NCBI GenBank assembly: GCA_902785075.1
Contig: CACZXN010000009.1
Location: 1 to 63,015 of the forward strand
DNA from: an uncultured Bacteroidales bacterium
GTDB lineage: Bacteria > Bacteroidota > Bacteroidia > Bacteroidales > Bacteroidaceae
DNA: 63,015 nt
Direction: 5' to 3'
Part shown: piece by piece, positions 6,014 to 63,010 of the stretch
Numbering within the stretch: position 1 is the stretch's first letter
Layout: each line of letters starts with the position of its first letter
Program-made: the position numbers and the translations under genes
The notes under the pieces: model-generated
The model's input: the letters and a program-made list of their open reading frames with translations, nothing else
The model's database searches: none
Told to the model about the DNA's origin: nothing

Positions 6014-6067
6014 CCCTTAAGGGAAAATTTTGTTACCCCTAGGGGCTGCAAATTTTTCCCCTAGGGA
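6014..6067. repeat. 22-bp phased palindrome array in gpx operon leader
   Basis: Three 10-bp palindromic boxes start at 6014 (CCCTTAAGGG), 6036 (CCCCTAGGGG) and 6058 (CCCCTAGGGA), exactly 22 bp apart. Spacers are A/T-rich; the second reads CTGCAAATTTTT. The same box type, period and spacer recur at 49137-49212. It lies about 30-80 nt inside the predicted gpx transcript. Confidence 0.8.
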
Positions 6068-6100
6068 GAACACTCTTTGTGCCTCATCGGATTCGCGTTG

Positions 6101-6130
6101 CAAAGGTAAGAAGAAAAAATTATGTCGCAA
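6101..6130 (-). promoter_or_regulatory. Promoter of gpx-ohrR-fusion operon
   Basis: On the minus strand: TTG (complement of 6128-6130), a 19-bp spacer, then TACCTTTG (complement of 6101-6108). This fits the Bacteroidota consensus exactly. An OhrR operator would be expected near here; no clear perfect palindrome overlaps the promoter core. Confidence 0.75.
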
Positions 6131-6200
6131 GCGATTTATCTAAAACTTTAAGTAAGTTTAACATTCTATCGTTTGCGATATTTATAGAAAAGACTCTTGA

Positions 6201-6704
6201 CTACTTTTGGGGCGAGTGCTGTTTCATCAACTCAACTGACTCCTTACCAGTAAGGTGCTCAATATCGAAACGGATAGCAAGCATACGCGAAAGGCCACTA
6301 TTGATTTCCTGCTGAAGAGCCTCGTCTTGATTCGGATTGTATCTGTTGCCAAGCAGACGGGCAATTTCGAGTTTCTCCGCTGGGTCCTCAATGATGTGAA
6401 TCCTGCCGAATGCAATTACACTACGAAAGAAGGTAGTGTATTTCTCAGGCTGAACTTCATCCTGACAGATTACGCAAAACGAAGCCTTGTCGCAGTTTCT
6501 AATTGCGTCCACCTTATGCCCTTCTAAAGCACTATGGAAATAGAGTTTTCCGTCCGAATAGACGTAACTGATTGGAACTGCATAGGGATAGCCCCCATCA
6601 CCCAACAAAGCCAAAGTGCCCGAAGTGGCTTTCTTCAGTAGTTCGATGCTTTCAGCATCAGGAAGTTGTTGGCGAAAACGCCTCATTGGTCTGAAATTTC
6701 TCAT
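6201..6704 (-). CDS. Nim-like pyridoxamine 5'-phosphate oxidase family protein
   Basis: A 167-aa split-barrel flavoprotein. The N-terminal FRPMRRFRQQLPDAES and the GTLALLGDGGYPYAVPISYVY, SDGKLYFHSALEGHKVDAI and SFCVICQDE segments follow the layout of NimA-type proteins. H63 in LEGHKVDAI matches the conserved His that NimA uses near its cofactor. Nim proteins are linked to 5-nitroimidazole resistance in Bacteroides, but many chromosomal homologs have no proven role, so no phenotype is claimed. It is last in a run of minus-strand redox genes, 79 bp after the DUF3795 gene. Confidence 0.82.
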   Translation of the reverse strand: MRNFRPMRRFRQQLPDAESIELLKKATSGTLALLGDGGYPYAVPISYVYSDGKLYFHSALEGHKVDAIRNCDKASFCVICQDEVQPEKYTTFFRSVIAFGRIHIIEDPAEKLEIARLLGNRYNPNQDEALQQEINSGLSRMLAIRFDIEHLTGKESVELMKQHSPQK

Positions 6705-6783
6705 CGTTCGTTTGAATAGAATATCAACAATAAACTAAATAATCACCTTCGTTCATCCTAAAATCTATTCGCTAACTTGGGAT

Positions 6784-7491
6784 TTACTTCTGCAGATTCT
6801 CTCTTGCCTGAGGGTTGTTCTGCCAAATCGCGTTGACTTTAGGACAGATGTCTTTCTCTGGACAATAGCCGCAAGTCTCAATCCCTTTGACTACTGCACA
6901 TTTTCGAATCTCACACAACGAGCTGCAAAACAGGGTTTTGGCGCCATTCATACGACATCCTTCGCAATTGATATGTTCTGGAAGAATCGAAGCATGATTC
7001 AATTCAGACCAGAGCTTGGCAGTTTTTTCCCGAAGAGATTGATCATTATTCTTTGTGGCAATGTAGGCATCACACTTCTCACAATCAAGTCCACAGATGG
7101 CTATCTGTCTTTTCATTTCGGCACCTCGAGTGATACGGAATGTACAACGGTCGCCACCTCTGAGAATCGTGTTGACGATCTGAACATCAAAGTTGCTATT
7201 AGGCTCAAGTTGTGATAGAATATACAAAATGCTTTGGCGCGAACACTCACATTGTTCAGGACAACTTCTCGTCCCACACTTAACCTTAGTGCAAGAGCAT
7301 TCTAAATAACTCAGTTCATATACTTTACCAGGAACGAGAACTTTACCTGTATATGAGTTGCTATTGTATGCTTCTGTATAGATTCTATCAAAATCTCCGT
7401 TATATTTGGCATATATCTGCTGATGAATGGGGAGGACATTATCCTTAACGCATGCTATTGCCTCTTCGCGGTAATTTACTCCTTTCTCCAT
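6784..7491 (-). CDS. DUF3795 protein with extra N-terminal domain
   Basis: A 235-aa protein in two parts. Residues about 127-235 form a Cys-rich DUF3795 unit (MKRQIAICGLDCEKCDAY at the start, then CEGCRMNG, CSSLCEIRKCAV and CGYCPEKDICP). Its many Cys pairs suggest a metal or Fe-S site. Residues 1-125 are a separate domain with ECSCTKVKCGTRSCPEQCECSRQS in the middle, ending GGDRCTFRI. That ending resembles the last strand of ATC-hydrolase/V4R-like small domains, which is a guess. Free-standing DUF3795 proteins normally begin at the internal Met, so this looks like a domain fusion. Function unknown. Confidence 0.65.
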   Translation of the reverse strand: MEKGVNYREEAIACVKDNVLPIHQQIYAKYNGDFDRIYTEAYNSNSYTGKVLVPGKVYELSYLECSCTKVKCGTRSCPEQCECSRQSILYILSQLEPNSNFDVQIVNTILRGGDRCTFRITRGAEMKRQIAICGLDCEKCDAYIATKNNDQSLREKTAKLWSELNHASILPEHINCEGCRMNGAKTLFCSSLCEIRKCAVVKGIETCGYCPEKDICPKVNAIWQNNPQARENLQK

Positions 7492-7528
7492 GTGTTTTCT
7501 TTCAGTTTAATTTAATATAAATTCTGGT

Positions 7529-8077
7529 TTACCTGTCTATTATCTCTATCTTTTTAATCACCTTCGCAGGAACACCTCCAACAATCGTATTCGGCTCAAC
7601 ATCATGTGTAACTACAGCACCTGCCGCAATGACTGCTCCATCGCCTATAGTCACACCCGGCAAAATGGTGGAATGCCCACCAATCCACACATCGTTACCT
7701 ATGGTGATAGGCATACCATATACATCAAGCGTGCGGCCTTCTGGCTCTAATCGATGACCTGCCGTGTAGATGCCAACGTCTGGCCCTATCAGGCAATTGT
7801 TGCCTATACGAATCTCTGCCAAATCGAGCATCGTACAGTTATAGTCGGCATGGAAGTTGTCGCCTACATGAATATGCTGTCCAAAGTCACAATGGAAATT
7901 ATCACCAACGAATGGATTACTGCCTACAGAGCCGAACAGTTCCATGATAATCTTCTGCTTTTCAGTTTGCTCAGCCAACGTAAGGCTATTCAGATGTTTT
8001 GTCAAAGCAGACACTTTAGCCATCAGCATCCGTATATCATCGTCTATTTCTGTCCTTGAGTAAAAAGTCTTTTCCAT
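7529..8077 (-). CDS. Sugar O-acetyltransferase (LacA/Maa family, left-handed beta-helix)
   Basis: A 182-aa acetyl-CoA-dependent acetyltransferase of the maltose/galactoside type. The N-terminal helices (to about residue 55) precede a left-handed beta-helix made of hexapeptides such as [57 protein letters not shown] and [10 protein letters not shown]. The catalytic His is in YTAGH. Substrate could be a sugar or glycan. It is 10 bp after the small membrane protein gene and 37 bp before the DUF3795 gene, so co-transcription is likely. Confidence 0.9.
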
Positions 8078-8087
8078 ACGTCATGAT

Positions 8088-8288
8088 TTATTCTTTTGTT
8101 AAGAAATAAACAAGCAGTGTTGGAATAATAACCAAAAGCAGCAATGTAACTTCCACAAGTGCATACGACCCGAAATAATCAACCAATGTCTGGAACTTCA
8201 GCACTCCATCGACCAGCAAGACTAAGAAAGCAAACCAGCAGATGAAGAATATGGCTGCATACTTTATTTTACGTTTCTTCAGTTTCAT
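8088..8288 (-). CDS. Small two-helix membrane protein
   Basis: A 66-aa protein with a Lys/Arg-rich start (MKLKKRKIKYA) and two predicted transmembrane helices (AAIFFICWFAFLVLLVDGVL and YALVEVTLLLLVIIPTLLVYFL). I do not recognise the family. The positive start suggests both ends face the cytoplasm. It is 10 bp before the sugar acetyltransferase gene, and a 21-bp repeat array separates it from the upstream DUF362 gene. Confidence 0.6.
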   Translation of the reverse strand: MKLKKRKIKYAAIFFICWFAFLVLLVDGVLKFQTLVDYFGSYALVEVTLLLLVIIPTLLVYFLTKE

Positions 8289-8291
8289 TCT

Positions 8292-8375
8292 ATAACCCTT
8301 ATCCTTTCATCAATAACCCATCATTATGAAGCAATAACCCTTGGTTATTTACGGATAACCCTTGGTTATTCATCT
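8292..8375. repeat. 21-bp tandem array with ATAACCC boxes
   Basis: ATAACCC starts at 8292, 8313, 8334 and 8355, exactly 21 bp apart. The last two units contain a near-perfect palindrome (AATAACCCTTGGTTATT at 8333-8349; GATAACCCTTGGTTATT at 8354-8370). The last unit overlaps the stop codon of the DUF362 gene. It fills the gap between that gene and the small membrane protein gene, so it may be a terminator, operator or RNA-processing site. Confidence 0.8.
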
Positions 8376-9412
8376 ATACTCTTTATTGTATATTGACGAC
8401 TCCCAAGCCCTATTTTCTCAGCATGTTCAATCGTGTGTACACCATGCTGTTGGTCAATACGGCTGAGCAAATCCGTTGGGTCGTTGGTGGCTGTTACTTT
8501 CTGCTGATTGATGATGTCGATACAAGCTTGGTCGAGCGCAACAGGATCAGTAGAGGCAAGAATGCCGTAGTCTTCGAGCTTCACAGGTTCCGGATGATCT
8601 ACACAATCACAATCAATCGACATGTTGTTCATCACGCTGATGTAGATAATACCCTTTTGTTTCGTGAAATAGTTCACCACAGCCTGTGCTGCTGCAGCCA
8701 TACTTTCAAGAAACCCGTCTTGGTCGCCAATAAACTCTGGCGTCCAAAGTTTATCCATATCAAGTTTCTCCATCTTGCCTGCCGAGTGGATGTAGGCTTT
8801 ACCGTTCTGGCTGGCACAACCGATAGACAGATTCTTTAATGCACCTCCATAGCCGCCCATTGGATGACCTTTAAAGTGATTTAAGGCAATCATGAAGTCG
8901 TAGTTTGCCATATGTCCTCCTACGATGTCGTACTTGATGTGCGATTGGTCCTCCACAGGGATACGAATCTCGTCGTATTCGTCCATGATATCCACAGGGA
9001 AAAGAGCCTTGAATCCATGACGCTCGATTACCCTCCAATGGTTCTCCGAAGAGTTGCGGTCGTCTTGCTCGTCACCAGGACCGTTTCCGTATGCTGTATT
9101 ACACTCCACGATGGTACCATTTACCTCATATACCAAATCCTTGATGAGTTCGGGCTTCAGATAGTTGGGATTGCTGCCTTCACCTGTACTCATCTTAACT
9201 GCTACCCTACCCTGAGCAGGAACTCCCAGCGCCTTATAGATTCTTACTAACGACTCCGGAGTTATCTCTCGAGTCAGATACACCGTTGCTTCATTGTTAC
9301 CTTTCTGTTCCATTTCCTTCTCTGTAGTTTGTTTTTTGTCCACGCAACCCATTAGCATTCCGACAGCAAGCGTTGCGAATAATACTGTAAGATTCTTCAT
9401 TGTTATATTCAT
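8366..9412 (-). CDS. DUF362 domain lipoprotein
   Basis: A 348-aa exported protein with a lipobox (LAVGMLMGC, Cys near residue 23) and a DUF362 domain over most of its length (VKMSTGEGSNPNYLKPELIKDLV to the C-terminus). DUF362 proteins often associate with Fe-S or redox metabolism. Here no ferredoxin Cys cluster is seen, so only the DUF362 core is present. The gene starts 3 bp after the flavodoxin-like gene, indicating coupling. A second possible start four codons in (9400) would also give a normal signal peptide. Confidence 0.82.
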   Translation of the reverse strand: MNITMKNLTVLFATLAVGMLMGCVDKKQTTEKEMEQKGNNEATVYLTREITPESLVRIYKALGVPAQGRVAVKMSTGEGSNPNYLKPELIKDLVYEVNGTIVECNTAYGNGPGDEQDDRNSSENHWRVIERHGFKALFPVDIMDEYDEIRIPVEDQSHIKYDIVGGHMANYDFMIALNHFKGHPMGGYGGALKNLSIGCASQNGKAYIHSAGKMEKLDMDKLWTPEFIGDQDGFLESMAAAAQAVVNYFTKQKGIIYISVMNNMSIDCDCVDHPEPVKLEDYGILASTDPVALDQACIDIINQQKVTATNDPTDLLSRIDQQHGVHTIEHAEKIGLGSRQYTIKSIDE

Positions 9413-9415
9413 GTT

Positions 9416-10060
9416 TTAATTCTTCAACTGTTCTGCCATACGTCGACCTGCATCGAACGCTTTTTGTAAATCCTGCTCCCAATGTTCCTCACGATACTTA
9501 CGTTTGTCCTCTTCCGAGAACCCTGCTAACTCATAACGATCGTAGTTCTTCACCTGATACGTGTTGTAAGCCATCAGGCGCTCAGGTTCACCAAGAGCAG
9601 CCGTGATGCAGTACTCCATCGAGCCGTATCCATGACTGTTGTTCCGTTCTGGCGTTCCGTTCATCGTTTCTATCAGCACAACAGGCATGCGTTTCGGAGC
9701 CGTCATGCTGTAGTCGTTGTAGGAGAGCCAAGGGAATGCCAAACGCTCCAAGAAGGTACGCATCTGACCAGTAACGTCACCAAAGTAAACGGGCGACCCA
9801 AGCACCAATCCGTCAGCCTCAGCTATCTCCTCCAACACAGGTGTCAAAGCATCCTTATATTTGCAGATGTTCGAGGCTTTTCCCTTTATCTTACATGCCA
9901 TACACGACATGCAACCTTTATAGTCGATTCCATAAAGGCGCACGGCCTTTACTTCTATTTGGTCACTTACTGAGCTTGCACCATCAGCAAATTTCTGTAG
10001 AATTGAGGCCGTATTGAAATTCTTTCTTGGGCCTCCGTCGATAATCACAATCTTCTTCAT
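9416..10060 (-). CDS. Flavodoxin family NAD(P)H-dependent oxidoreductase
   Basis: A 214-aa flavodoxin-fold protein. It has the FMN-phosphate loop GGPRKNFNTASIL, a Cys cluster CMSCMACKIKGKASNICKY (residues about 50-68) like that of iron-sulfur flavoproteins, and GSPVYFGDVTGQMRTFLERL, the conserved SPVYFGxxxxxMKxFLER block. It probably carries FMN and reduces quinones or other electron acceptors. It heads a two-gene unit with the DUF362 lipoprotein under the promoter at 10090-10119. Confidence 0.87.
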   Translation of the reverse strand: MKKIVIIDGGPRKNFNTASILQKFADGASSVSDQIEVKAVRLYGIDYKGCMSCMACKIKGKASNICKYKDALTPVLEEIAEADGLVLGSPVYFGDVTGQMRTFLERLAFPWLSYNDYSMTAPKRMPVVLIETMNGTPERNNSHGYGSMEYCITAALGEPERLMAYNTYQVKNYDRYELAGFSEEDKRKYREEHWEQDLQKAFDAGRRMAEQLKN

Positions 10061-10089
10061 AGCTATGATTCAAAAATTAGTTCTGCCTG

Positions 10090-10119
10090 CAAAGATAGCA
10101 AATAAATCAGAAACGCCAA
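10090..10119 (-). promoter_or_regulatory. Promoter of flavodoxin-DUF362 unit
   Basis: Minus-strand TTG (10117-10119), a 19-bp spacer and TATCTTTG (10090-10097), a perfect consensus 30 nt upstream of the start codon. Confidence 0.8.
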
Positions 10120-10267
10120 ATCGTTAATGCTGATTTTTTTACTCTTAAACCTATAAAAACACACAAAAACCAAACAAACTCAGGTCGTAAGAACACGAAA
10201 AAAGAGAAGGATATGTAGGCTTTTCAAATATATTATGTACTTTTGCATTGTCAAAACAAACCTAATA

Positions 10268-11398
10268 ATGAAAAAAACGAAAATGAAACAAATGAAATTA
10301 TGGATGTGGACAGCTACCCTACTGTTTTGCTGCCTGACAATGATGACTTCGTGTAGCGAAGAAGATGACGACGTAACACCTGAGTACCAAAAGACCGTTG
10401 ATATTAAATGTTCGAAACCAGAATATCTGAAGAAAGGCGACAAAGTGGCACTCCTATCACCATCCTATTACACACCCAATGAGAATGTGGAGAAAACAGC
10501 CGACGTACTACGCAGCTGGGGACTTGAGCCTGTTATCGGACCTAATGTAGGAAAAGTAATCGATGGACGCTATGCAGGAACCGTAGCTCAACGCATCAGC
10601 GACATACGTTGGGCACTTACCGACCCAACCATCAAAGCCATCATCTGCAATCGTGGCGGATATGGAACCATCCAACTGATTGACCAGATGACACTCTCCG
10701 AATTGAAAGCTTCGGCAAAGTGGATTGTAGGGTTTAGCGACATCTCTACCCTGCATGGACTTTGGAATCGAGCGGGAGTGATGAGCATCCATGGAACCAT
10801 GAGTTCGTTCCTTGCTAAGGGTGGCAACGATACGACCAGCACCCTGATGCGCGACCTGCTACTCGGAAATGTTCCTCGATATGAACTACCAGCCCACAAC
10901 CAGAACATCACAGGACAAGCCAAGGGTGTACTCGTTGGAGGAAATCTATGCACCTTTGTCCCTAACCTCGGTTCACAAGCTGATGCAACCAAGGGTCGCG
11001 ACCTGATTCTATTTGTGGAAGAAGTAGAAGAATCCATGCATAACATCGACCGTCAGATGCGCATCCTGCAGATGAACGGAGTTCTTGACCGCTGTCGTGG
11101 TGTTATACTTGGAGAATTCACCGACTGCGGTACGGAGTTCACCTATGAGAATGTCGAAGCGATGCTCCATCAGATGCTGAAACCCTATAACATCCCACTT
11201 CTCTGCGGATTCCCTGCAGGTCATGGCGATGTAAACCTGCCCCTCGTGATGGGAGCACCAGTCACCATTGATGTACGCAACGATGGAGCCACTCTGCAGT
11301 TCAATATCGATGGTACTCAGCAAGAAGTACACACAGCCGACATCACAGCTCCCCAAACCCCTGTAGCAACCCGCATGCACTTGGCAGGCAAACGCTAA
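10268..11398 (+). CDS. LD-carboxypeptidase, S66 family, lipoprotein
   Basis: A 376-aa exported S66 peptidase, starting with a lipoprotein signal (LLFCCLTMMTSC, lipid-modified Cys near residue 28). The catalytic triad is readable: S157 in GFSDIS, E251 in FVEEVEE and H319 in GFPAGHGD. S66 enzymes (LdcA) remove the terminal D-Ala from muropeptide tetrapeptides during murein recycling. LdcA in E. coli is cytosolic, so an outer-membrane or periplasmic lipoprotein form would act on peptidoglycan outside the cytoplasm. A TACTTTTG -7 box (10238-10245) lies 23 nt before ATG 10268 and overlaps the longer in-frame ATG at 10235, supporting the shorter start. Confidence 0.9.
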   Translation: MKKTKMKQMKLWMWTATLLFCCLTMMTSCSEEDDDVTPEYQKTVDIKCSKPEYLKKGDKVALLSPSYYTPNENVEKTADVLRSWGLEPVIGPNVGKVIDGRYAGTVAQRISDIRWALTDPTIKAIICNRGGYGTIQLIDQMTLSELKASAKWIVGFSDISTLHGLWNRAGVMSIHGTMSSFLAKGGNDTTSTLMRDLLLGNVPRYELPAHNQNITGQAKGVLVGGNLCTFVPNLGSQADATKGRDLILFVEEVEESMHNIDRQMRILQMNGVLDRCRGVILGEFTDCGTEFTYENVEAMLHQMLKPYNIPLLCGFPAGHGDVNLPLVMGAPVTIDVRNDGATLQFNIDGTQQEVHTADITAPQTPVATRMHLAGKR

Positions 11399-11424
11399 CT
11401 TGTTACGAATAAATAAAATAGCAA

Positions 11425-11850
11425 TTAGCACTTACGTTTTTTCTTGTAGCCATAGCCATACGAGGGACCTGTGCTACAAAAGGGCATGTAAGCAATGTCG
11501 GGCATAAAAGTGATGGTGTAGTCGCTTTCCGAACGATAGATGACTCCTATCGCATCGATATGCATTTCCATATCGATGTGGTACATGTTTTGATAGCGAT
11601 AAATGGCTCGAACTATATTTCGGAGCTTAGCGTCTGTGATGGCTTGCACAGGATTTTCCATCAGGTTGGATGTTGTGCTGCGTGTCTTTACTTCGATGAA
11701 ATGAAGTTCATTGTCTTTGGTGGCCACGATGTCGAGCTCGCAACCTTTGTGAAGGTTCCAGTTTCGATGGAGGATTCTGTAACCCTGTTTCGTCAGATAG
11801 TCACCTGCCAGCTCCTCGCCATTTTGTCCGATTGTCCATCTTTCGTCCAT
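11425..11850 (-). CDS. yraN: YraN family nuclease-like protein (UPF0102)
   Basis: A 141-aa protein of the YraN family, with a small restriction-endonuclease-like fold. It keeps the conserved GQNGEELAGDYL, CELDIVA and HFIEVKTRS segments, i.e. the E-x-D-x-ExK metal-binding arrangement (E12, D40, E53, K55). The C-terminus is a lineage-specific basic tail (YGYGYKKKRKC). Family function is poorly defined but the fold suggests a nuclease or Holliday-junction-like role. It converges on the LD-carboxypeptidase gene, 26 bp away. Confidence 0.88.
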   Translation of the reverse strand: MDERWTIGQNGEELAGDYLTKQGYRILHRNWNLHKGCELDIVATKDNELHFIEVKTRSTTSNLMENPVQAITDAKLRNIVRAIYRYQNMYHIDMEMHIDAIGVIYRSESDYTITFMPDIAYMPFCSTGPSYGYGYKKKRKC

Positions 11851-11914
11851 AATTCCGTACGTTGTTTCCCTTGCTCTTCTTTATGAGAATGATGAAAGGG
11901 TTGTTTTTTCTTTG

Positions 11915-11944
11915 CAAAGATATGGAAAAGAGTTCAAAGTTCAA
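11915..11944 (-). promoter_or_regulatory. Promoter of yraN
   Basis: Minus-strand TTG (11942-11944), a 19-bp spacer and TATCTTTG (11915-11922) give an exact consensus match. The leader is about 60 nt. Confidence 0.75.
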
Positions 11945-27378: not shown

Positions 27379-27533
27379 GTCGGCGAAGAGTTCAAATCGA
27401 ATTTGAAATGTCGTTCGGGGGTCGGCGAAGAGTTCAAATCGTATTTGAAGTGTCGTTCGGGGGTCGGCGAAGAGTTCAAATCGTATTTGAAGTGTCGTTC
27501 GGGGGTCGGCGAAGAGTTCAAATCGTATTTGAA
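27379..27533. repeat. 42-bp tandem array A with 17-bp palindrome per unit
   Basis: Units start at 27379, 27421, 27463 and 27505 (the last is partial, 29 bp). Each contains TTCAAAT-CGN-ATTTGAA, an inverted repeat with 7-bp arms, at 27391, 27433, 27475 and 27517. Units differ by only a few bases, so expansion is recent. Confidence 0.9.
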
Positions 27534-27690
27534 AAGCCGTTGCACCCCCGCAATGAGGTCGCCGGACGATTTTCTAAGCCGTTGCACCCCCGCAATGAGG
27601 TCGCCGGACGATTTTCTAAGCCGTTGCACCCCTGCTATGAGGTCGCTGGACGATTTTCTAAGCCGTTGCACCCCCGCAACGGGAGCGCTT
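27534..27690. repeat. 42-bp tandem array B
   Basis: Directly joined to array A. Units start at 27534, 27576 and 27618, with a partial unit at 27660. The unit begins AAGCCGTTGCACCCCCGCAA and is unrelated to array A. In the last unit CCGTTGC/GCAACGG forms a perfect 7-bp stem around ACCCCC. Confidence 0.9.
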
Positions 27691-31072: not shown

Positions 31073-31096
31073 CCATCACCATCAGGGAAAAAAGAA

Positions 31097-31133
31097 AATG
31101 GTGCTGCACCCGTGTGCAACACCATTCTTTTTT
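31097..31133 (+). terminator. Terminator after BspA-like gene
   Basis: 13-bp arms AATGGTGCTGCAC (31097-31109) and GTGCAACACCATT (31114-31126) have one mismatch and a CCGT loop, followed by six T. Nearly the same hairpin occurs again at 31362. Confidence 0.9.
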
Positions 31134-31163: not shown

Positions 31164-31320
31164 TTTTCAACGTTTGCCAAAGGCTGGGCATTTATTAAAA
31201 ACCGTTTTCAGCGTCTGCAAGAACTTTTGCATTTATAAAAATATGTTCGCAGCGTTTGCAAGAGCTTTTGCATGTGTTTTATTCAGTTCGCAGTGTTTGC
31301 AAGAGCTTTTGCAAACTTAA
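31164..31320. repeat. 41-bp degenerate tandem array between two near-identical terminators
   Basis: Four units share CARCGTYTGC and start that core at 31168, 31209, 31250 and 31291, exactly 41 bp apart. The later units carry a near-palindrome TTTGCAAGAGCTTTTGCAAA. No ORF is supported. The 31073-31415 gap otherwise holds only the two hairpins. Confidence 0.85.
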
Positions 31321-31361
31321 GATAAAATTGCAAATATGCAAAATCCGTAAAGACAAAAGAA

Positions 31362-31399
31362 AATGGTGCTGCACCGAGCGTGCAACACCATTCTTTTTT
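31362..31399 (-). terminator. Terminator serving DUF805 gene, probably bidirectional
   Basis: Arms 31362-31374 and 31380-31392 are the same 13-mers as in the 31097 hairpin, with a CGAGC loop. A-rich DNA lies to the left and T-rich DNA to the right, so it can work in both directions. It is 17 bp past the stop codon of the minus-strand DUF805 gene. Confidence 0.85.
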
Positions 31400-49004: not shown

Positions 49005-49050
49005 GAGCAGCCAATCATTGGTTGCTCTTTCCTTAATCCTTTTTTTTCTT
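49005..49050 (+). terminator. Rho-independent terminator after purM
   Basis: 10-bp arms GAGCAGCCAA (49005-49014) and TTGGTTGCTC (49018-49027), one G-U pair, followed by two T-rich runs. Confidence 0.85.
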
Positions 49051-49069
49051 ACCCCTAGAGTAAATTTCT

Positions 49070-49128
49070 GTTGCAAGTCGTGCAACGTATGTTGCAGGTC
49101 GTGCAACGTACATTGCAGGTCGTGCAAC
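49070..49128. repeat. 21-bp tandem array of TTGCA palindromes
   Basis: GTTGCAAGTCGTGCAAC and two near-copies start at 49070, 49091 and 49112, exactly 21 bp apart. Each has TTGCA/TGCAA arms around a 5-base centre. Confidence 0.9.
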
Positions 49129-49136
49129 AGAAAATA

Positions 49137-49212
49137 CCCTTAAGGGAAAAAACTTTTTCCCCTAGGGGCTGCAAATTTTTCCCTTAGGGGCTGCAAAATT
49201 TTCCCTTAGGGG
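49137..49212. repeat. 22-bp phased palindrome array (second locus)
   Basis: Boxes CCCTTAAGGG (49137), CCCCTAGGGG (49159) and CCCTTAGGGG (49181 and 49203) are exactly 22 bp apart, with CTGCAAATTTTT-type spacers. It is the same element as at 6014-6067, one box longer. The 49213-49358 stretch after it holds no further feature. Confidence 0.88.
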
Positions 49213-49391
49213 AAACACAAAAACAGGAGTTTATTCAGAAGATGTATCTACCTCATTATCGTTTTATCGAGAGGTCTATTTTTCCGTATTAACTGCTTAT
49301 ATTTGGACAGATTGGTAAAAAAACTTGAATAGAAAATGGTAGATTGCAGAATTATTCGTATATTTGCAAATTGAAGATAGAATAAAACAAT

Positions 49392-56988: not shown

Positions 56989-56991
56989 TAT

Positions 56992-59055
56992 TTATTTCTT
57001 AAAATACTTACAGAACTGAATATACTCGTCACAGCGAGATACGTAAGAGCTAACATTCTTGTTATTAGCCTCAAACTCAGCAAGCGCAGCAAAAGCCTTA
57101 TACTGGCTGGTTTCTGGCTTAACTGTTCTGCGAGGCTGCCCGCCTGATGCTCCCCAATTATAGGTAAACCATTCCTCTCCTGGATACAGATAAATGTATG
57201 ACAAAGCAAACAAAGCACGCTCTTTCAACTGAGGATCTGTCGTTTCTGCAGCCGAACGCAACAAACGCACTGCTTTAGCATTCAAGTCTGCCTCATTTAC
57301 TCGGACCTCATCTGCCCAACTCTTTCCGTTTCGCATGAGGTACCAGCAATCACCCGTAAAGTTAGCTTGTGCATACATCACAGCAAGATCGTAGCAGGCC
57401 TGCTGATGGTTCTTTCCCTTCAACTTCTTCAGGCGATCTTCCATCGAATTAATCTCCTTGACAAAATCCATCTTCGGATTCGAAGTCATGTGCTGAGGTT
57501 CACCCGAATAAGCAATAGAATCTTTCAACCATTGACGTTTAATCCAAGGTTCAACCTTGTAACTGCGATTCGCTGCATAGGCTGCATAACCTGCATTGTT
57601 ATAGAACGAAACCGGAACTTTCTTCAACCACTCCATCGCTTCTGGCCACTGACACAGACGCATATATTTCGTACCTATCAAATCGTAGAGTTCTAGTTCT
57701 GGTGTATGCGTATCCGGAAGGTCTGAATTGTGCGTAGAAAGCAAATTCTTCAAATAGCGATCAAGTGGTGACGAAAGCGTACGATTGAAATAACCAAGGT
57801 AACTCTCGACACTCTTCACGTCTATCGTATCTAAAGCTTCCACATATTCATAGTGAGGATCGATGATGTTCAGAAGCGCAAGCGAAGTCTCCACTCGATT
57901 GTTCTGAGCATACTTATCAACAAGAACTTGATGAACAATACGTTCATTAGCTCTCCAGTAGAACCCATCTTCGTCATTCATTGACTTGAGCCAAGCCAAC
58001 TCTCCAGCAACGTAATTATCAAATTGATCGTTAATAGGCTGTTGAGCTGCAGAGATATAGAAACGGAGCACTCGTGCATTGTTCTTCATCCAATCCGTTC
58101 CCTCCATCTTCACGGCTTCGTCAATATCAGTCAACGCCTGCTGACGATTACCGTACATATACTCAAGCCAAGCCTTGGCACTCATCCACAAGGCTGGAAC
58201 ACGACTCTTGCCTTCCTTCACGACTTCACCTGCCAACAGAATCATCTGCTGAGCCTCAAGTTTCGTTATGGTGCGGACAAACATTTTGCCATATCCATCT
58301 TCATCAACTGCTTCTTGCGAGTTGTTCACAAAATCCTGTAACAAGAAAGGCAGAACAGCCGAATTGGCATTATGCTGATACTCCTGACGTATCGCCTGAT
58401 ACGAGCGTTTCTTATAATATTGTGTCATCAGGCTCGACCAGTCGCCCATCTCAGCAAACAACCGACCTGCCTCATCGGGATGATTCGTCTTCAACAAGGC
58501 ACCTGCATAGATATTCTTCATCATGTCCTTATACACTGACTCTATGAGTTTTACTCCTGTCTGCTCCCAGAATGTCACATTCTCAGCATGCTTTCCTTGC
58601 AGCATATTACAGCGCATGAACAACAATGCATGTTGACTACGCAGACGCGATGTCAACTTTCCTTCTGCATAGGTACGTACCTCGTTGATAATACGATTGC
58701 GTTGAGCCAAATCTTCCTTCGAAGGATAATCCCAAGCATCGGAGATTACCTTCGATGCACAATCCAAATAGCGTTCCAAGTTGTTCACATAGCTCACCAT
58801 TAACGCATCACCCTTACTGTTTGCGAAGTCGCGAATCTTATCGGCATCGAAATAATACAAATCCTCGTCCGAACCCAGATAAGATTTCCAGTTGTCTAAC
58901 GTGATTTCGTCCATGCGATTACTAAACTCGTTAGAGTTATACACATGGAAAAGGTAATAGTTGTGGGTGTAGTACCCAACACACGGAAAAGCCGTCGTGC
59001 TGACAGCCGTCATCATGCTAATGGCGATAAAACGCTTCAAATGTTTTCTTGTCAT
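56992..59055 (-). CDS. Exported TPR-like protein, unknown function
   Basis: A 687-aa protein with an N-terminal signal (MTRKHLKRFIAISMMTAVST). Most of it is alpha-helical with TPR-like helix pairs (for example AYAANRSYKVEPWIKRQW and ACYDLAVMYAQANFTGDCWYLM). ATG 59055 is preferred over the longer frame from 59115, whose extra 20 residues break the signal. It overlaps the 3' end of the upstream lipoprotein gene by 38 bp. I recognise no catalytic motif. Context suggests envelope assembly or export with the lipoprotein and MATE transporter. Confidence 0.7.
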   Translation of the reverse strand: MTRKHLKRFIAISMMTAVSTTAFPCVGYYTHNYYLFHVYNSNEFSNRMDEITLDNWKSYLGSDEDLYYFDADKIRDFANSKGDALMVSYVNNLERYLDCASKVISDAWDYPSKEDLAQRNRIINEVRTYAEGKLTSRLRSQHALLFMRCNMLQGKHAENVTFWEQTGVKLIESVYKDMMKNIYAGALLKTNHPDEAGRLFAEMGDWSSLMTQYYKKRSYQAIRQEYQHNANSAVLPFLLQDFVNNSQEAVDEDGYGKMFVRTITKLEAQQMILLAGEVVKEGKSRVPALWMSAKAWLEYMYGNRQQALTDIDEAVKMEGTDWMKNNARVLRFYISAAQQPINDQFDNYVAGELAWLKSMNDEDGFYWRANERIVHQVLVDKYAQNNRVETSLALLNIIDPHYEYVEALDTIDVKSVESYLGYFNRTLSSPLDRYLKNLLSTHNSDLPDTHTPELELYDLIGTKYMRLCQWPEAMEWLKKVPVSFYNNAGYAAYAANRSYKVEPWIKRQWLKDSIAYSGEPQHMTSNPKMDFVKEINSMEDRLKKLKGKNHQQACYDLAVMYAQANFTGDCWYLMRNGKSWADEVRVNEADLNAKAVRLLRSAAETTDPQLKERALFALSYIYLYPGEEWFTYNWGASGGQPRRTVKPETSQYKAFAALAEFEANNKNVSSYVSRCDEYIQFCKYFKK

Positions 59056-59887
59056 ATCTATTAATATTATCGTGATCCAAATGATAGAGCAGGATGGAGT
59101 GGCGCAACTCATCACGCTCGTTTTCTACTGCAGCCTTCACCTTCAGTATCTCATCAGCAGACACTTCGTGTACGAGGTTCATATTGTAAAACACACGTTG
59201 CCAGCTGAATACCGGATAAGCGGCTGCCAACTTCAGCTGATAACTGCCCAGATAGCGCAGATAAGGCTCTACGTCCCTTAAATCGAGGATGGGATTACGT
59301 TCCATATATTTCTGCGGATCGCCCGTGTTGTATATCATCAGCACACCATAATCGACTGGCGGCACAGGCATCGACAACTGATGCAGACGGATGGTTGTCG
59401 ATAGTCCCATTGCGTGCTTACGAGCTTCTTCGCGTACTTCGGCAAGGAATTCGTAATATCCCTGACGACTTCGTAAGGTATAATCACAGTCAATCTGAAT
59501 CTCCTTCACATTGTGAACATCATTCGTTTCGTTCATCTTCACAACTCGCTCCACAATCTTCGTTGCCAATCCTGTTAGCGACTGATGCAGACAAGCTTCT
59601 GTGATGTAAACCGTAGGGATGATTTCCAAGTCTTGAGGCACCGTATCAACAAACACAATCGTTGCGATGGGTTTGAGTTCTGTTGCTCCCTCATCTGTCA
59701 CAACATCAAAATACCGACAATACACCTTATGAATCTGATACTGTTCAATGAAATCCCGTTCCAACGAGTCGAGTCGCCACTCAGTACGCCAGTAATACAC
59801 CGCGTTCTCATCGTCCATCCGTTCCTGATGCGAACAGGCAAGGAAGAATGGTAGCAGAATCATACAAACGAGCCATCTCTTTTCCAT
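59018..59887 (-). CDS. Lipoprotein, possible TIM-barrel-like domain
   Basis: A 289-aa lipoprotein: MEKRWLVCMILLPFFLACSH is a signal with lipobox FLAC. VKEIQIDCDYTLRSRQGYYEFLAEVREEARKHAMGLSTTIRLHQL resembles a strand-helix unit of barrel-type glycosidase-like proteins (DUF3142-like), and YGVLMIYNTGDPQKYMERNPILDLRDVEPYLRYL follows. No catalytic pair is certain. The start at 59887 is supported by a TAACTTTG -7 box (59911-59918) that lies downstream of the longer in-frame ATG at 59956. It is the first gene of the lipoprotein-TPR-MATE unit. Confidence 0.72.
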   Translation of the reverse strand: MEKRWLVCMILLPFFLACSHQERMDDENAVYYWRTEWRLDSLERDFIEQYQIHKVYCRYFDVVTDEGATELKPIATIVFVDTVPQDLEIIPTVYITEACLHQSLTGLATKIVERVVKMNETNDVHNVKEIQIDCDYTLRSRQGYYEFLAEVREEARKHAMGLSTTIRLHQLSMPVPPVDYGVLMIYNTGDPQKYMERNPILDLRDVEPYLRYLGSYQLKLAAAYPVFSWQRVFYNMNLVHEVSADEILKVKAAVENERDELRHSILLYHLDHDNINRYDKKTFEAFYRH

Positions 59888-59964
59888 ACTTGCTGTACAA
59901 ATATCGGGTGCAAAGTTACTAAAAATCTTCATTACTTCCATTCTTTCAACCTTCAATTCTTATT

Positions 59965-60008
59965 AAAAAGGCAGATGGGCGCTTGTTTCCACAACAAACA
60001 CCCACCCT
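59965..60008 (-). terminator. Terminator after dnaB
   Basis: On the minus strand, an extended stem pairs GGTGGGTGTTTGTT with AACAAGCGCCCATC (several G-U pairs), followed by TTTTT. It ends dnaB transcription before the lipoprotein gene. Confidence 0.7.
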
Positions 60009-60043
60009 AAACAACAATTGATAATGTGAGAAAAATGTATATT

Positions 60044-61597
60044 TCAAAACGGAGCATCGCTAGGGGGCACATCTCTTCCGGTTCCTATGGGATCGTCGTC
60101 AGATATAGCCACTTGGTTCATCCTTGACTGTATCAGTCCATTATTGGACGTCTCACCAGGTAGTGGAACATCATCCGTTCTATTCGCAAAACGAGCATAC
60201 TCGCCGATGAAACGCAGTTTCACATCTCCGGTCTTACCATTTCGATGCTTGGCAATAATCAGTTCAGTGATACCTTTCAACGGGTTTCCATGACTATCTT
60301 TCAAGATACCATAATAATCCGGACGATGAATCATGCACACCATATCGGCATCTTGCTCGATGGCACCCGATTCTCGCAGGTCCGACAACTGAGGACGGTG
60401 AGTGTCCTTCTGCTCCTCTGTTGACGCATTTGCAATTCGGTTTTCGACACCGCGGTTCAATTGCGACAGCGCGATAATCGGGATTTGCAGTTCCTTTGCC
60501 AAAGCTTTCAACGATCGGGAAATCGTCGACACTTCTTCCTGGCGATTGTTGTAACTCATACCCGATGCGTTCATCAACTGCAGGTAGTCGATTAATATCA
60601 GTTTCACCCCATGTTCGCGCACCAATCGGCGTGCTTTGGTTCTGAGTTCAAAGACCGACAACGATGGCGTATCATCGACATAGAGCGGTGCTCCGTAGAG
60701 CGCTTGCATTCTACTGCTCAACTGCTGCCACTCGTAAGGGGCTAACTGACCACTACGAAGTTTCTCACTTGTAATCTCACATACATTCACTAACAAACGA
60801 TTGACCAACTGCACATTCGACATTTCGAGCGAGAACATCGCAACCGGAATACGATAATCTACCGCTATGTTCTTCGCCATCGAAAGCACAAAGGCGGTCT
60901 TTCCCATTGACGGACGCGCAGCAATAATAATAAGGTCTGACTTCTGCCAACCATTCGTAATTTCGTCCAACTGATAGAAGCCCGAACTGATGCCCGAGAT
61001 GCCGTCGGGATTATGAGCAGCTTCCTCAATCAACTTATAAGCCTCGTTCAGCACAGGGTCAATCTGTACGAAATCCTTCTTGATATTCGTCTTCGACAAC
61101 TCAAACAGCCTACCCTCTGCTGTCTGCATCAGCTCATCAACATCCTGTCCTTCCGTGAAGGCACCCTCCTGAATCTGACTGGCATACTTGATCAACTCTC
61201 GTGCCAGATACTTCTGAGCGATAATCTTGGCGTGATACTCTATGTGAGCCGACGAAACGACTTTATTGCTCAGTTCGGCTATGTAATAAGGACCACCTGC
61301 CTCCTCCAACGTTCCGTTCACACGCATCTGCTCCGTAACCGTCAGGATGTCGATAGGCTTGTTCTCGGCCGACAGACTCTGGATGGCTTCGAATATCAGT
61401 CGATGCTTCGATTCGTAGAACGATTGGGGTTTCAGTATATCCGCAATGCGTCCAAATGCCTCCTGCTCAATCAGACAGGCACCAATGACCACCTCCTCAA
61501 AGTCGGTTGCCTGGGGCTGCTGACGTCCTAAGTCAGAGACAATCTTCACTTCTTCACTCTTCTTTCGCGCTGTTGTACGTTTATTTGTTGTTGGCAT
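60044..61597 (-). CDS. dnaB: Replicative DNA helicase DnaB
   Basis: A 517-aa hexameric RecA-fold helicase. The N-terminal DnaB domain (EEVVIGACLIEQEAFGRI) precedes the ATPase with Walker A AARPSMGKTAF near residues 224-234, Walker B LILIDYLQLM and LRESGAIEQDADMVCMIHR. There is no intein. The C-terminus is a short Asp/Pro-rich tail. A -7 box TAACTTTG (61644-61651, minus strand) is upstream. The 61598-61882 gap also holds an inverted repeat TTATGAAC/GTTCATAA (61692-61734). Confidence 0.95.
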   Translation of the reverse strand: MPTTNKRTTARKKSEEVKIVSDLGRQQPQATDFEEVVIGACLIEQEAFGRIADILKPQSFYESKHRLIFEAIQSLSAENKPIDILTVTEQMRVNGTLEEAGGPYYIAELSNKVVSSAHIEYHAKIIAQKYLARELIKYASQIQEGAFTEGQDVDELMQTAEGRLFELSKTNIKKDFVQIDPVLNEAYKLIEEAAHNPDGISGISSGFYQLDEITNGWQKSDLIIIAARPSMGKTAFVLSMAKNIAVDYRIPVAMFSLEMSNVQLVNRLLVNVCEITSEKLRSGQLAPYEWQQLSSRMQALYGAPLYVDDTPSLSVFELRTKARRLVREHGVKLILIDYLQLMNASGMSYNNRQEEVSTISRSLKALAKELQIPIIALSQLNRGVENRIANASTEEQKDTHRPQLSDLRESGAIEQDADMVCMIHRPDYYGILKDSHGNPLKGITELIIAKHRNGKTGDVKLRFIGEYARFANRTDDVPLPGETSNNGLIQSRMNQVAISDDDPIGTGRDVPPSDAPF

Positions 61598-61882
61598 AAT
61601 CGGTCTAACTTGTTGTGAACTTGTCGAATCAATTTTCAGGGCACAAAGTTACAACTAATTCAACATTCAACACTCAAGAATACCCTATTATTTATGAACA
61701 CCGTTGTTGAAAACTCTGTTGAAAACGTTCATAACTTTATCCGCAAAGTCAGTCGCATCGCTGCCAAATCGCCAAATGACGAACCTATCATTTAATTCAT
61801 CGATTGAAAGCCCATTTGAGCAGAATTGACCGAATTGCGTTCAAAATCACAGCGAATGCAACAAAATAAAGCAGATAATTAC

Positions 61883-61912
61883 TTGATATATGGCAAATAA
61901 TTACTATCTTTG
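61883..61912 (+). promoter_or_regulatory. Promoter of tmRNA gene
   Basis: TTG (61883-61885), a 19-bp spacer and TATCTTTG (61905-61912), an exact consensus match. It predicts a short 5' precursor of about 40 nt before the mature tmRNA end. Confidence 0.85.
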
Positions 61913-61958
61913 CACGCTTTTCCGTTAAGCGAAACGAAAAGAGCACACACTATTACTT

Positions 61959-62354
61959 GGGGTTGACATGGATTTGACAGCAAGCCGAGGTGGTAGGTAA
62001 GCATGCAGAGCGTTGTTGGGTGGCTCTTTAATCCCATCTTTCGTCAAATTTATCTGGCAACAATACTTTTGCTCTCGCAGCTTGATCGAAGTATAGTAGA
62101 TCGCTTTATTCCTTTGTTAGACATTGGAACGAGACATCGCGCTGAAAGCCCCCTTCCTGAGGCGTTTAGATAAGCGGTGCGGCAAATTCGGGAATAGCTC
62201 TTGGCAGCCTCGTGCCCTGAGCGAATCTTTAGAGGATAAGGGTGCGACTCGATGGTTCAGGTCAGGTCACATCACGAAAACCAAAACTGAACTAAGCATG
62301 TAGAAAGCTTATGGTCTCCTTGTTTGGACGAGGGTTCGATTCCCTCCAGCTCCA
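61959..62354 (+). ncRNA. ssrA: Transfer-messenger RNA (tmRNA)
   Basis: The 5' end GGGGTTGACATGGATTTGAC and the 3' end GGGTTCGATTCCCTCCAGCTCC form the alanine-tRNA-like half: GGGGTTG pairs with CAGCTCC (62347-62353), discriminator A at 62354. CCA is not encoded. The tag reading frame ends at TGA 62083-62085 and gives GNNTFALAA when read from GGC 62056. Most Bacteroidota tags known to me end NYALAA, so F for Y is a variant. tmRNA with SmpB frees stalled ribosomes. Confidence 0.95.
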
Positions 62355-62360
62355 CAAAGA

Positions 62361-62640
62361 AAGACCCTCCCCCGTACCCCTCCCTCTATGGAGGGGAGTG
62401 GTCACCTATATAAAGCTCCCCCTTTAAGATAGAGGGGGTGCCCTTCAGGGCGGGGGCGTATGAAAAATCGTAAATAAGATTGCACACTCCTCCACCATAA
62501 ATGGTCCCCCTCCCCTAGCTTAGGGGAGGAGCTAATAAACCCAAGACCCCCTCTAACTCCCCCTCTAGGGGGAGGATAAAAATAAAAAAAGATTCTCATT
62601 TATGATAGAGGGGGTGCTTTTTTTAGGGCGGGGAGTAGGA
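62361..62640. repeat. REP-like GC-rich hairpin block
   Basis: Several perfect hairpins occur in gene-free DNA: GCCCT/AGGGC near 62440-62452, CTCCCCTA-GCT-TAGGGGAG (62510-62528) and CTCCCCC-TCTA-GGGGGAG (62557-62574). The last is preceded by AGACCCCCTCTAA, as at 12061. Nothing in this stretch looks coding. Confidence 0.75.
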
Positions 62641-62653
62641 ACTAAGAGCGAAT

Positions 62654-62692
62654 AGCGGGCAAAAGTGGAATGAATTGACACTTTTGCCCGCT
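62654..62692. terminator. 14-bp perfect hairpin, terminator-like
   Basis: AGCGGGCAAAAGTG (62654-62667) and CACTTTTGCCCGCT (62679-62692) pair without mismatch around an 11-base loop, followed by GTTTATTC. The weak T-run makes it a terminator candidate only; it could also be a processing or REP hairpin. Confidence 0.65.
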
Positions 62693-62720
62693 GTTTATTC
62701 ACTTTTCTCGTCCCTTTCGC

Positions 62721-62749
62721 TTGTCGTTACAAACTTTTTCGTATCTTTG
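62721..62749 (+). promoter_or_regulatory. Promoter before terminal micro-ORF
   Basis: TTG (62721-62723), an 18-bp spacer and TATCTTTG (62742-62749), one base short of the best spacing. Confidence 0.65.
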
Positions 62750-62818
62750 CACGTGATTATCGTACTGAATACCGAATGATACATTAATCAAATTTTCGTA
62801 ATAACTCATTAAAAACAA

Positions 62819-62875
62819 ATGACTATGAAGAAAAAATCGTATGAAAAACCGACGATGGAAGTCGTCAAGTTATAA
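62819..62875 (+). CDS. Truncated Bacteroidota KPTMEVV-type micro-peptide
   Basis: An 18-codon ORF (or 16 from ATG 62825) gives MKKKSYEKPTMEVVKL. Many Prevotella and Bacteroides genomes carry small proteins starting MKKxYxKPTMxVV that then continue for 20-60 residues. Here a TAA stops it at 62873-62875, after which the same frame continues open (LKGEKPPAADFRSPRK) into the 42-bp array. This looks like a shortened or interrupted member. Function unknown. Confidence 0.5.
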   Translation: MTMKKKSYEKPTMEVVKL

Positions 62876-62884
62876 CTAAAAGGC

Positions 62885-63010
62885 GAAAAGCCCCCAGCGG
62901 CGGACTTCCGCAGCCCGCGGAAATGAGAAAAGCCCCCTGCGGCAGACTTCCGCAGCCCGCGGAAATGAGAAAAGACCCCAGCGGCGGACTTCCGCAGCCC
63001 GCGGAAATGA
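62885..63010. repeat. 42-bp tandem array C, reaching the window end
   Basis: Three units start at 62885, 62927 and 62969. In the micro-ORF frame each unit reads EKPPAADFRSPRK plus a stop (EKTPAADFRSPRK in the third); the stop overlaps an ATG (ATGA), which opens the neighbouring frame MRKAPCGRLPQPAE repeated to the window end (62923-63015). Each unit holds TTCCGC, which can pair with GCGGA before it or GCGGAA after it. Confidence 0.88.

Follow-up and report, generated by a model that had tools for sequence, protein, structure and literature searches.

The DNA analysed here, called the window throughout, is a stretch of 63,015 nt from an uncultured Bacteroidales bacterium of the family Bacteroidaceae (GCA_902785075.1, contig CACZXN010000009.1, positions 1-63,015, forward strand). 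It holds a series of short tandem arrays, which were listed with TRF at score 30 (Table 1). The preliminary description had named eight arrays of different sequence with periods of 21, 22, 41 or 42 bp. TRF recovers seven of the eight with these periods; the array at 6014 has no TRF row, and its units are visible on wrapping at 22. This array carries a family A match at 6036 and has the core CCCCTAGGGGCTGCAAA in common with family A at 49159. It is a degenerate copy of the family found at 49137, which leaves seven units. The arrays at 49070 and 49137 are parts of a single composite element, in which the first family A dyad stands 21.5 bp from the last family B dyad. Several 7-mer arrays had also been described as 21 or 42 bp in total length; such a pattern is not supported, as the 11 kept 7-mer arrays of the window measure 16, 21, 32, 43, 16, 25, 17, 17, 15, 15 and 20 bp. 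Taken whole, the observation is partly confirmed: it is real, with these corrections.

Table 1. Arrays and dyads in the window. Fold z, folding as single-stranded DNA relative to shuffles; half-unit identity, value in the array and, where given, in shuffles.
Feature	Position	Strand	Units and dyads	TRF	Fold z	Half-unit identity
Family A element	6010..6071	+	Three degenerate 22 bp units, dyads CCCTTAAGGG, CCCCTAGGGG, CCCCTAGGGA	No row	-3.4	
21 bp array	8306..8369	+	~2.8 copies, dyad AATAACCCTTGGTTATT; wrapping	8311-8369	-3.1	
42 bp array	27379..27541	+	3.9 copies, dyad TTCAAATCGTATTTGAA	Yes	-5.3 (27379-27520)	0.31 vs 0.32
Second 42 bp array, unlike the first	27534..27679	+	3.5 copies; adjoins the 27379 array with 8 bp overlap	Yes	+0.26 (no folding excess)	0.26 vs 0.31
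41 bp array	31188..31313	+	Contains TGCAAGAGCTTTTGCA	Overlapping rows 31188-31273 and 31209-31313 (2.1 and 2.6 copies)	-0.8	0.39 (p 0.10)
Leftmost dyad of composite element	49050..49062	+	TACCCCTAGAGTA, centre ~49056; read by eye			
Family B	49069..49128	+	Three 21 bp units like GTTGCAGGTCGTGCAAC, centres 49078, 49099, 49120	Yes	-7.5 (49046-49135)	
Family A	49137..49212	+	Four dyads, 22 bp step, centres 49141.5, 49163.5, 49185.5, 49207.5	49154-49212	-2.5 (49130-49216)	
42 bp array	62885..63014	+	3.1 copies, dyad TTCCGCAGCCCGCGGAA; reaches window end	Yes	-2.0	0.33 vs 0.35

By half-unit identity against shuffles, the 41 and 42 bp units of the window (the 27379 unit among them) are neither built of 22-mers nor doubled 21-mers, and these arrays may thus be a separate matter. 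The arrays at 27379 and 27534 both lie within one 129-aa ORF and are scored as coding by the ORF mask; hence, they are absent from the non-coding counts given below. A Pfam search of this ORF gave no match. The only Rfam matches in the window at gathering scores are tmRNA and, as a borderline case, Acido-Lenti-1; neither is at an array.

We show here that the window's genome and its relatives, nearly all Bacteroidaceae, contain a class of non-coding tandem arrays with a unit length held at 21-23 bp, mostly 22, and a unit sequence that changes by family and species. Within 863 kb of the genome that holds the window, 16 of the 24 distinct non-coding families with a period of 17-27 bp fall at 21-23 bp (p 6.5e-5). 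Other genomes, represented by 112 stretches nearly all from the same bacterial family (80 prfA loci, 8 genus and 24 family stretches), give 20 of 25 (p 6e-8), and all 8 of their distinct families with a period of 35-50 bp are at 44 bp. When the samples are pooled, 37 of 62 distinct families (period 17-100) deviate from a multiple of 22 by no more than 1 bp, where the chance share is 0.14 (p 2e-16). An ungapped lag scan yields the same main period peak. In shuffled non-coding DNA no period of 19-21 bp exceeds 0.3 arrays per pass, and periods of 22-23 bp are absent. Arrays of 44 and 66 bp are higher-order forms of this class; in the relatives, 9 of 10 such units are made of 22-mers. Other Bacteroidota have fewer of these arrays; a scan of 100 kb of E. 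coli found none. Thus, the non-coding peak that had been predicted is found at 21-23 bp in two samples of the genome itself as well as in further genomes of its group, and the broad distribution without a peak that was looked for as its opposite is not. A codon effect as the cause of the period is ruled out, because 22 is no multiple of 3 and the arrays lie outside coding sequence; the peak is also present in other species, where the units are unrelated. Since DNA in E. coli cells is given as ~11 bp per turn (PMC8501960), the base step of 22 bp corresponds to two turns. That intergenic repeats of this gut bacterium and of related genomes, unlike in sequence, have a common step of ~22 bp suggests that the length itself matters.

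The ranges (17-27 and 35-50), the +/-1 rule and the thresholds were fixed after the first sample of the window's own genome, and the results from other genomes are an independent check on them. Families with a 9-mer in common were counted once in the peak tests. Among the 80 prfA loci one (L091, Heminiphilus) belongs to the Muribaculaceae and one (L040) is labelled Roseburia; omitting both leaves the result of the 17-27 peak counts unchanged. The 12 stretches L121-L132, all picked for holding a family A match, are left out of the pooled peak tests and included in the unit-dyad, copy-number/ORF and indel counts. In the other stretches contig starts are over-represented and several loci come from one genome, and gene calls are plain ORFs throughout.

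Some of the units are palindromic. With a loop allowed, dyads at p<0.05 make up 12 of 55 distinct units in the 21-23 and 41-44 bp classes, compared with 8 of 134 controls (Fisher p 0.003; 5/77 coding, 2/39 non-coding of 15-20 bp, 1/18 non-coding of 24-40 bp). This test supersedes an earlier loop-free version, in which 5/42 and 4/13 units reached p<0.05. The other 43 of the 55 units are not significant dyads, so that the common length extends beyond the dyads. Non-coding dyads outnumber those in shuffles in the window's genome (494 vs 236), in relatives (349 vs 205) and in other families of the order (117 vs 102). Families A (22 bp) and B (21 bp), with 69 and 51 matches in the window's genome, make up dispersed composite elements there, and some of these elements have symmetric ends when read by eye. 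Family B units are flipped in place, with arms kept and loop reversed, in 7 of 16 arrays with at least two units, and these arrays keep 21 bp steps with a single exception of 20 bp, as would be expected if the dyad is what matters. A peak of unlike dyads at 10-11 bp was not used as evidence, because tandem palindromes yield half-step dyads automatically.

As to a bias towards gene 3' ends, 13 of 40 arrays in the window's genome have a convergent setting (Fisher p 0.025 against intergenic regions, of which 37 in 229 are convergent). This lean is not repeated at the 80 prfA loci, where 3 of 19 arrays are convergent and 5 divergent, or in genus stretches at family A matches, where the numbers are 1 and 5 of 10. 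Arrays near purM and prfA are not conserved between species of the genus, and around the 49070-49212 element the gene order at purM/prfA has changed across the genus. Unlike 22 bp arrays in several Bacteroides loci had suggested a hotspot upstream of purM; it was rejected, as the upstream genes differ and arrays occur in 3 of 7 regions upstream of purM, while the other long intergenic regions carry them in 10 of 39 cases. Rows of short dispersed palindromic units between genes are also known as REP/BIME elements of enterobacteria. The units described here resemble them in being short, dispersed and palindromic, with the lean to convergent gene pairs in the window's genome, but unit length and sequences are unlike. 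Also, a REP/RAYT reading is not supported, since the RAYT-type Y1 transposase domain (Y1_Tnp, PF01797) has no match in this genome, at an assembly completeness of 85.5%, and is found in 5 of 14 control genomes.

Our tentative first choice is a length dictated by the double helix, with sites two turns apart that are held by putative proteins bound in phase. A unit would be one site of ~10-20 bp, often a dyad. With ~11 bp per turn in vivo, adjacent sites two turns apart would be spaced by 22 bp, and this may be the tightest spacing that lets dimeric DNA-binding proteins stack on one face without clash. Copy number would shift via slippage or recombination, and the unit letters would turn over while the spacing stays, preserved because the bound proteins would interact in phase. 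That the Bacteroidaceae arrays are defined by length, with sites stacked at every second helical turn, phase under selection and sequence replaced between species, and are bound by a putative protein or complex guided by spacing or shape more than by sequence, appears somewhat unlikely to us. A whole-turn spacing that is constant regardless of sequence is seen in the period counts and the lag scan. In elements traced by hand (window 49056-49207, L109, L003) the 21-22 bp step is kept across junctions of unrelated dyads; one such junction in L128, read by eye, is off the step. With each junction type counted once, 8 pairs of unrelated dyads stand at 21-22 bp compared with ~3 in shuffles, a weak excess, and most distances in the 14-32 range have 0-3 pairs. 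Periods of 31-33 bp, i.e. three turns, are rare although equally in phase, and this counts against phased sites, as does the lack of conservation between species of the genus for the arrays near purM and prfA. Among imperfect arrays 55 of 76 at 21-23 bp are free of indels, compared with 57 of 84 other non-coding ones (p 0.6), and an effect of length constraint is not visible. The indel and cross-family phase tests therefore give no clear support for selection on phase.

Nearly as probable is a mutational origin of the common length. A replication, repair or nicking process of this family may duplicate ~22 bp in tandem, for example when nicks paired at a distance of two turns are filled in, with the arrays as neutral by-products. 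A common length despite unlike sequence would be expected of such a process, and the lack of extra indel purging in the counts above is in line with it. The peak at 21-23 bp is present even when the copy number of a non-coding array is below 2.5: it accounts for 31 of 75 such arrays with a period of 15-50 bp and 31 of 43 with a period of 17-27 bp, with the stretches chosen for family A included. Arrays within called ORFs point in the same direction: 13 have the frame-breaking period of 22 bp, compared with two at 17, one at 23, one at 25 and none at 19, 20 or 26, and this favours a mutational process unless the ORFs are wrong. At least 2 of the 14 ORF-internal arrays of 22-23 bp (L010 and L110) are family A elements, so that some of these ORFs are likely wrong. 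Moreover, coding arrays lack a clear excess at the in-frame length of 21 bp (15: 19, 18: 11, 21: 14, 24: 6, 27: 7), and neither the over-representation of dyads nor the many dispersed copies of family B would be expected from a plain duplication process. We consider it unlikely that the arrays are stem-loop or MITE-like non-autonomous mobile elements, with tandem palindromes that fold into long hairpins of RNA or single-stranded DNA and a period set by hairpin size. Such elements would account for the dispersal of families A and B and for the symmetric ends, and five of the eight window arrays fold at z -2.5 or lower. However, dyads of 10 to ~20 bp all keep to one period, which hairpin size leaves unexplained, the 27534 array and the 41 bp array (placed at 31164 in the preliminary description) fold no better than shuffles, the RAYT gene is missing from the genome, and three window families occupy a single locus each within the sampled 863 kb. 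An ordinary cause, namely a few related families or chance behind the window pattern, is very improbable. The 6014 and 49137 arrays are indeed one family, families A, B and that of TTTCATACTTTGAAA supply many arrays of the window's genome, and in the sampled 863 kb three of the four 41-42 bp arrays occur nowhere outside the window; the peaks nevertheless survive the single counting of families that share a 9-mer, they recur in independent genomes, and dinucleotide shuffles yield almost no arrays. The interpretation proposed at the outset is partly supported: a period class independent of sequence and beyond the codon effect exists, and its single mechanism would be either a repeat-making process of fixed length or selection for proteins bound on one face of the helix.

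The closest known repeats are those of 22, 23 and 41 nt in Porphyromonas gingivalis, as described in the sections of PMC4596501 drawn on here: BrickBuilt with 23 nt repeats, MITE464/PgRS with 41 nt, and further 22 nt repeats in strain W83. The 23 and 41 nt units are mutually unrelated, intergenic and species-specific, with dyad symmetry and stem-loops (PMC4596501). BrickBuilt, a MITE with long stem-loops, is a precedent for mobile elements of this kind; it carries a leader, a tail and IS5-type terminal repeats, and 10 of its 19 copies have terminators nearby (PMC4596501). Like BrickBuilt, families A and B are dispersed tandem units in intergenic DNA, with 21-22 bp rather than 23 nt, and like BrickBuilt and MITE464 the arrays described here are intergenic, have lengths of ~22 and 41 and occur within the Bacteroidales. 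A main difference is that here one period is common to dozens of families across many genomes. Against a MITE-like origin, the BrickBuilt terminal inverted repeats GAGACCTTTGCA occur in the window at chance level (2 matches at <=2 mismatches vs 5.4 expected), and of their 6 matches at <=1 mismatch in the sample of the window's genome only 1 is at most 400 bp away from one of the 59 arrays. The same sections of PMC4596501 handle the P. gingivalis repeat lengths singly, without a remark on a common helical length. The ~11 bp periodicity of bacterial genomes, described in the parts of PMC4132750 and PMC7537859 considered here as a genome-wide periodic base bias, likewise links a length to the helical pitch of supercoiled DNA, whereas the present arrays are discrete tandem repeats with a length quantised at 22 bp. 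Among the titles and abstract openings found by literature searches, none states a common period of 21-23 or 44 bp in unrelated repeats of this group.

Tandem repeats are customarily classed by sequence. A length class that is blind to sequence across a bacterial family would point either to a mutational process that measures out its own length or to selection on DNA geometry. The latter, if true, would mean that chromosome proteins of major gut bacteria are served by a spacing code.

Tandem arrays in this genome and its relatives form a length class that is real, general and independent of sequence. The genome, of which the window is contig C9, is a draft of 2.9 Mb (85.5% complete). Three Bacteroidaceae/Prevotellaceae assemblies contain the nearest named matches of its prfA (98% protein identity), and two of these assemblies have titles naming rumen or reticulum samples. 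We sampled the window and 40 stretches of 20 kb (863 kb, ~89 kb non-coding), called arrays by TRF and retained the best of overlapping rows. Non-coding arrays in the first half of the sample had periods of 21 (n=11), 22 (n=12) and 23 bp (n=3), with none at 19, 20 or 25; the corresponding counts in the second half were 7, 6 and 1, and periods 19, 20 and 25 each occurred once. When the non-coding DNA of the first half was dinucleotide-shuffled, no period between 19 and 23 exceeded 0.3 arrays per pass. The non-coding peak that the preliminary description had anticipated is present: with families sharing a 9-mer counted once, 16 of the 24 distinct families in the range 17-27 have periods of 21-23 (p 6.5e-5), although this and the following binomial p values are guides only, because the tests assume independent families and equally likely lengths and the ranges were fixed after the first sample.

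The expected peak in relatives was likewise found. Among 112 loci from other genomes (80 prfA loci, 8 genus and 24 family stretches, without the 12 that had been selected for a family A hit), the range 17-27 contains 25 families, of which 20 have periods of 21-23 (p 6e-8), and all eight families in the range 35-50 sit at 44. Twenty-five loci contribute the families at 21-23, 44 and 66, and the result is unchanged without two loci whose affiliation is different or uncertain. In an ungapped lag scan, 22 was the top lag among those ≥15 (own 24, prfA 12, genus 6, family 10 arrays). A near-exact duplication scan placed 37 of 39 duplications of the family set at 20-23, 42-44 or 63-66, with maxima at 21-22 in the own set and 22 in the prfA set, both rising from broad background signal that includes side peaks (own e.g. 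16, 28, 33, 35). When own and other genomes are pooled, 37/62 distinct families (period 17-100) are no more than 1 bp away from a multiple of 22 (chance share 0.14, p 2e-16). Arrays are few in 36 stretches from other Bacteroidales families and other orders or classes of the phylum, 4 versus 13.5 expected at the related sets' lower density (Poisson p 0.003), and 4/8 families of period 17-27 lie at 21-23 there (p 0.15); 100 kb of E. coli held zero non-coding arrays.

TRF recovered seven of the eight arrays that had been described as different in sequence. The array at 6014 belongs, in degenerate form, to the family of the 49137 array (family A, 22 bp dyad units), so that there are seven different units, and the arrays at 49070 (family B, 21 bp units) and 49137 form a single composite element. 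Family A has 69 own-genome matches at ≤2 mismatches (reversed control 0) and occurs in 8/17 genus genomes including its own, of which one, having a lone match, is at control level; it was found in none of 14 other genomes and, at ≤1 mismatch, in none of 40 further genomes of the phylum. Family B has 51 own-genome matches (one place counted on both strands) and 0-3 in each of 40 other examined genomes of the family, which is the reversed-control level. Its arrays run in 21 bp steps, one 20 bp step excepted, and in 7/16 arrays with at least two units single units are inverted in place, the 5-base loop being reversed and the arms kept. Between family A dyads lies a cassette of family B or of the TTTCATACTTTGAAA family, and the step across hand-traced junctions is near 21-22 bp. 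That phase is kept across families is suggestive only, because a systematic count of unlike dyads, taking each junction type once, gave a weak excess at 21-22, and one junction in the sampled stretch L128 is out of step.

Positions and steps of repeat and other features in the window, own-genome contigs (C) and sampled stretches (L)
Feature	Location	Remarks
Family B in-place flip	C2:45430	
Family B in-place flip	C5:56175	
Family B in-place flip	C8:43436	
Family B in-place flip	C10:43040	
Family B in-place flip	C12:16628	
Family B in-place flip	C16:81843	
Family B in-place flip	C34:9107	
Dyad steps, hand-traced	Window composite	about 22, 21, 21, 21.5, 22, 22, 22 bp
Dyad steps, hand-traced	L109	22, 21.5, 21, 21, 21, 21.5 bp
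Dyad steps, hand-traced	L003	22, 21, then 23 bp inside a third family
7-mer arrays	Window 1001-1021, 5336-5378	among 11 kept rows
11 bp array, directly followed by one resembling its inverted copy	L013:125-246 (own C10)	large inverted pair
11 bp array, directly followed by one resembling its inverted copy	L128:14052-14205	large inverted pair
42 bp array	Window 62885-63015	window ends inside it; if the contig does so too, this would be an assembly break that hides the true copy number
Terminator-like hairpins, near-identical	Window 31096-31133, 31360-31399	AAAATGGTGCTGCACC...GTGCAACACCATTCTTTTTT, on both sides of the 41 bp array
CCCCTCC...GGGGAGG-type repeats	Window 62360-62640	in a row after the tmRNA gene
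Acido-Lenti-1 RNA match	Window 3545-3590, minus strand	37.6 bits, marginal against a gathering score of 37

The units share no sequence relationship, and many are dyad-like (GTTGCAGGTCGTGCAAC, CCCCTAGGGG, TTTCATACTTTGAAA, AGTGCGCCYTARGGCGCACT, GAGTGCGCACTC). In a shuffle test at p<0.05, dyads were found in 7/42 distinct units of 21-23 bp and 5/13 of 41-44 bp, versus 5/77 coding, 2/39 non-coding 15-20 bp and 1/18 non-coding 24-40 bp controls (12/55 vs 8/134, Fisher p 0.003). Significant dyads are thus a minority, and length is the more general feature. In 9/10 arrays the relatives' 44/66 bp units are two or three diverged 22-mers, with an internal identity of 0.45-0.85 at lag 22. For the units of 41 and 42 bp in the window the corresponding identity is 0.26-0.39, the same as shuffled, and they show no doubled structure; three of the window's four 41-42 bp arrays have no other locus in the sampled 863 kb. 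Of the periods first described, 22 with its multiples is strong, but the window's true 41-42 bp units are the weaker part of the pattern.

Further own-genome peaks lie at 7, 14 and 11 bp. The period of 7 bp is the commonest non-coding one in the own and prfA sets; these arrays are a class separate from the 22 bp arrays, yet a 7 bp sub-period is present in 9/81 of the arrays at 21-23 bp. Of the own-genome arrays with a period of 7 or 14 bp that adjoin a gene start, 27/55 are no more than 50 bp away from it, and of those that adjoin a gene end 15/35 are equally close, which does not demonstrate proximity to promoters. The 11 bp arrays of L013, L016 and L020, all from the own genome, are at most about 310 bp from a contig start. 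An element upstream of prfA in L021 (ACTCCTCCACC...GGTCCCCCTCC) is similar to the repeats following the window's tmRNA gene. Own-genome arrays of 21-23 or 41-44 bp lean towards convergent regions (13/40 convergent, 5/40 divergent, vs 37/229 and 60/229 intergenic regions; convergent excess Fisher p 0.025), a leaning that did not recur in prfA loci (3 convergent, 5 divergent of 19) or in genus stretches at family A hits (1 and 5 of 10). Arrays near purM and prfA are not conserved between genus species, and a hotspot upstream of purM was rejected on follow-up comparison.

A dimeric protein covers ~17-20 bp of DNA. If such proteins were packed in phase as closely as possible, a step of 21-22 bp would result, which would account for the lower frequency of 11 and 33 bp, lengths that are as much in phase as 22. 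For DNA inside E. coli cells roughly 11 bp per turn was found (PMC8501960), and at that pitch 22 bp makes two helical turns. Sites packed every two turns, a reading that is fitted by the dyads and in-place flips, are our tentative preference, still well short of probable. Three observations count against it and speak for a mutational ruler, a duplication process of fixed length, which we rate almost as high. Two-copy arrays also peak at 21-23 (31/43 of period 17-27), and indels are not rarer in 21-23 bp arrays (imperfect arrays without indels 55/76, vs 57/84 of other arrays). The peak at 22 is also seen in called ORFs, where multiples of 3 show their expected abundance and period 22 stands out with 13 arrays (17 n=2, 23 and 25 n=1 each, 19, 20 and 26 n=0). 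At least two of the ORF-internal 22-23 bp arrays (L010, L110) are family A elements and their ORFs are therefore likely wrong; ORFs with 22 bp arrays, if real, would favour the ruler.

Stem-loop or MITE elements would accommodate families A and B and have a precedent in Porphyromonas gingivalis, but they leave one length common to dyads of 10 to 20 bp unexplained, and we consider them unlikely. The terminal repeats of the P. gingivalis MITE BrickBuilt, as given in its description, were not found at the arrays of the window and own sample, where one of six matches at ≤1 mismatch in the own sample is within 400 bp of any of 59 arrays, and a Y1 transposase was not found in the 85.5% complete own assembly. 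The preliminary description had suggested a single mechanism; one mechanism is plausible, though unproven, whereas the length class itself stands. The BrickBuilt account reports 23 nt and 41 nt (PgRS) repeats, states that they are not homologous to each other, and mentions earlier descriptions of 41, 23 and 22 nt repeats in strain W83 (PMC4596501). The same set of lengths thus recurs with other letters in a species from a different Bacteroidales family, which we take as independent support for the length class.
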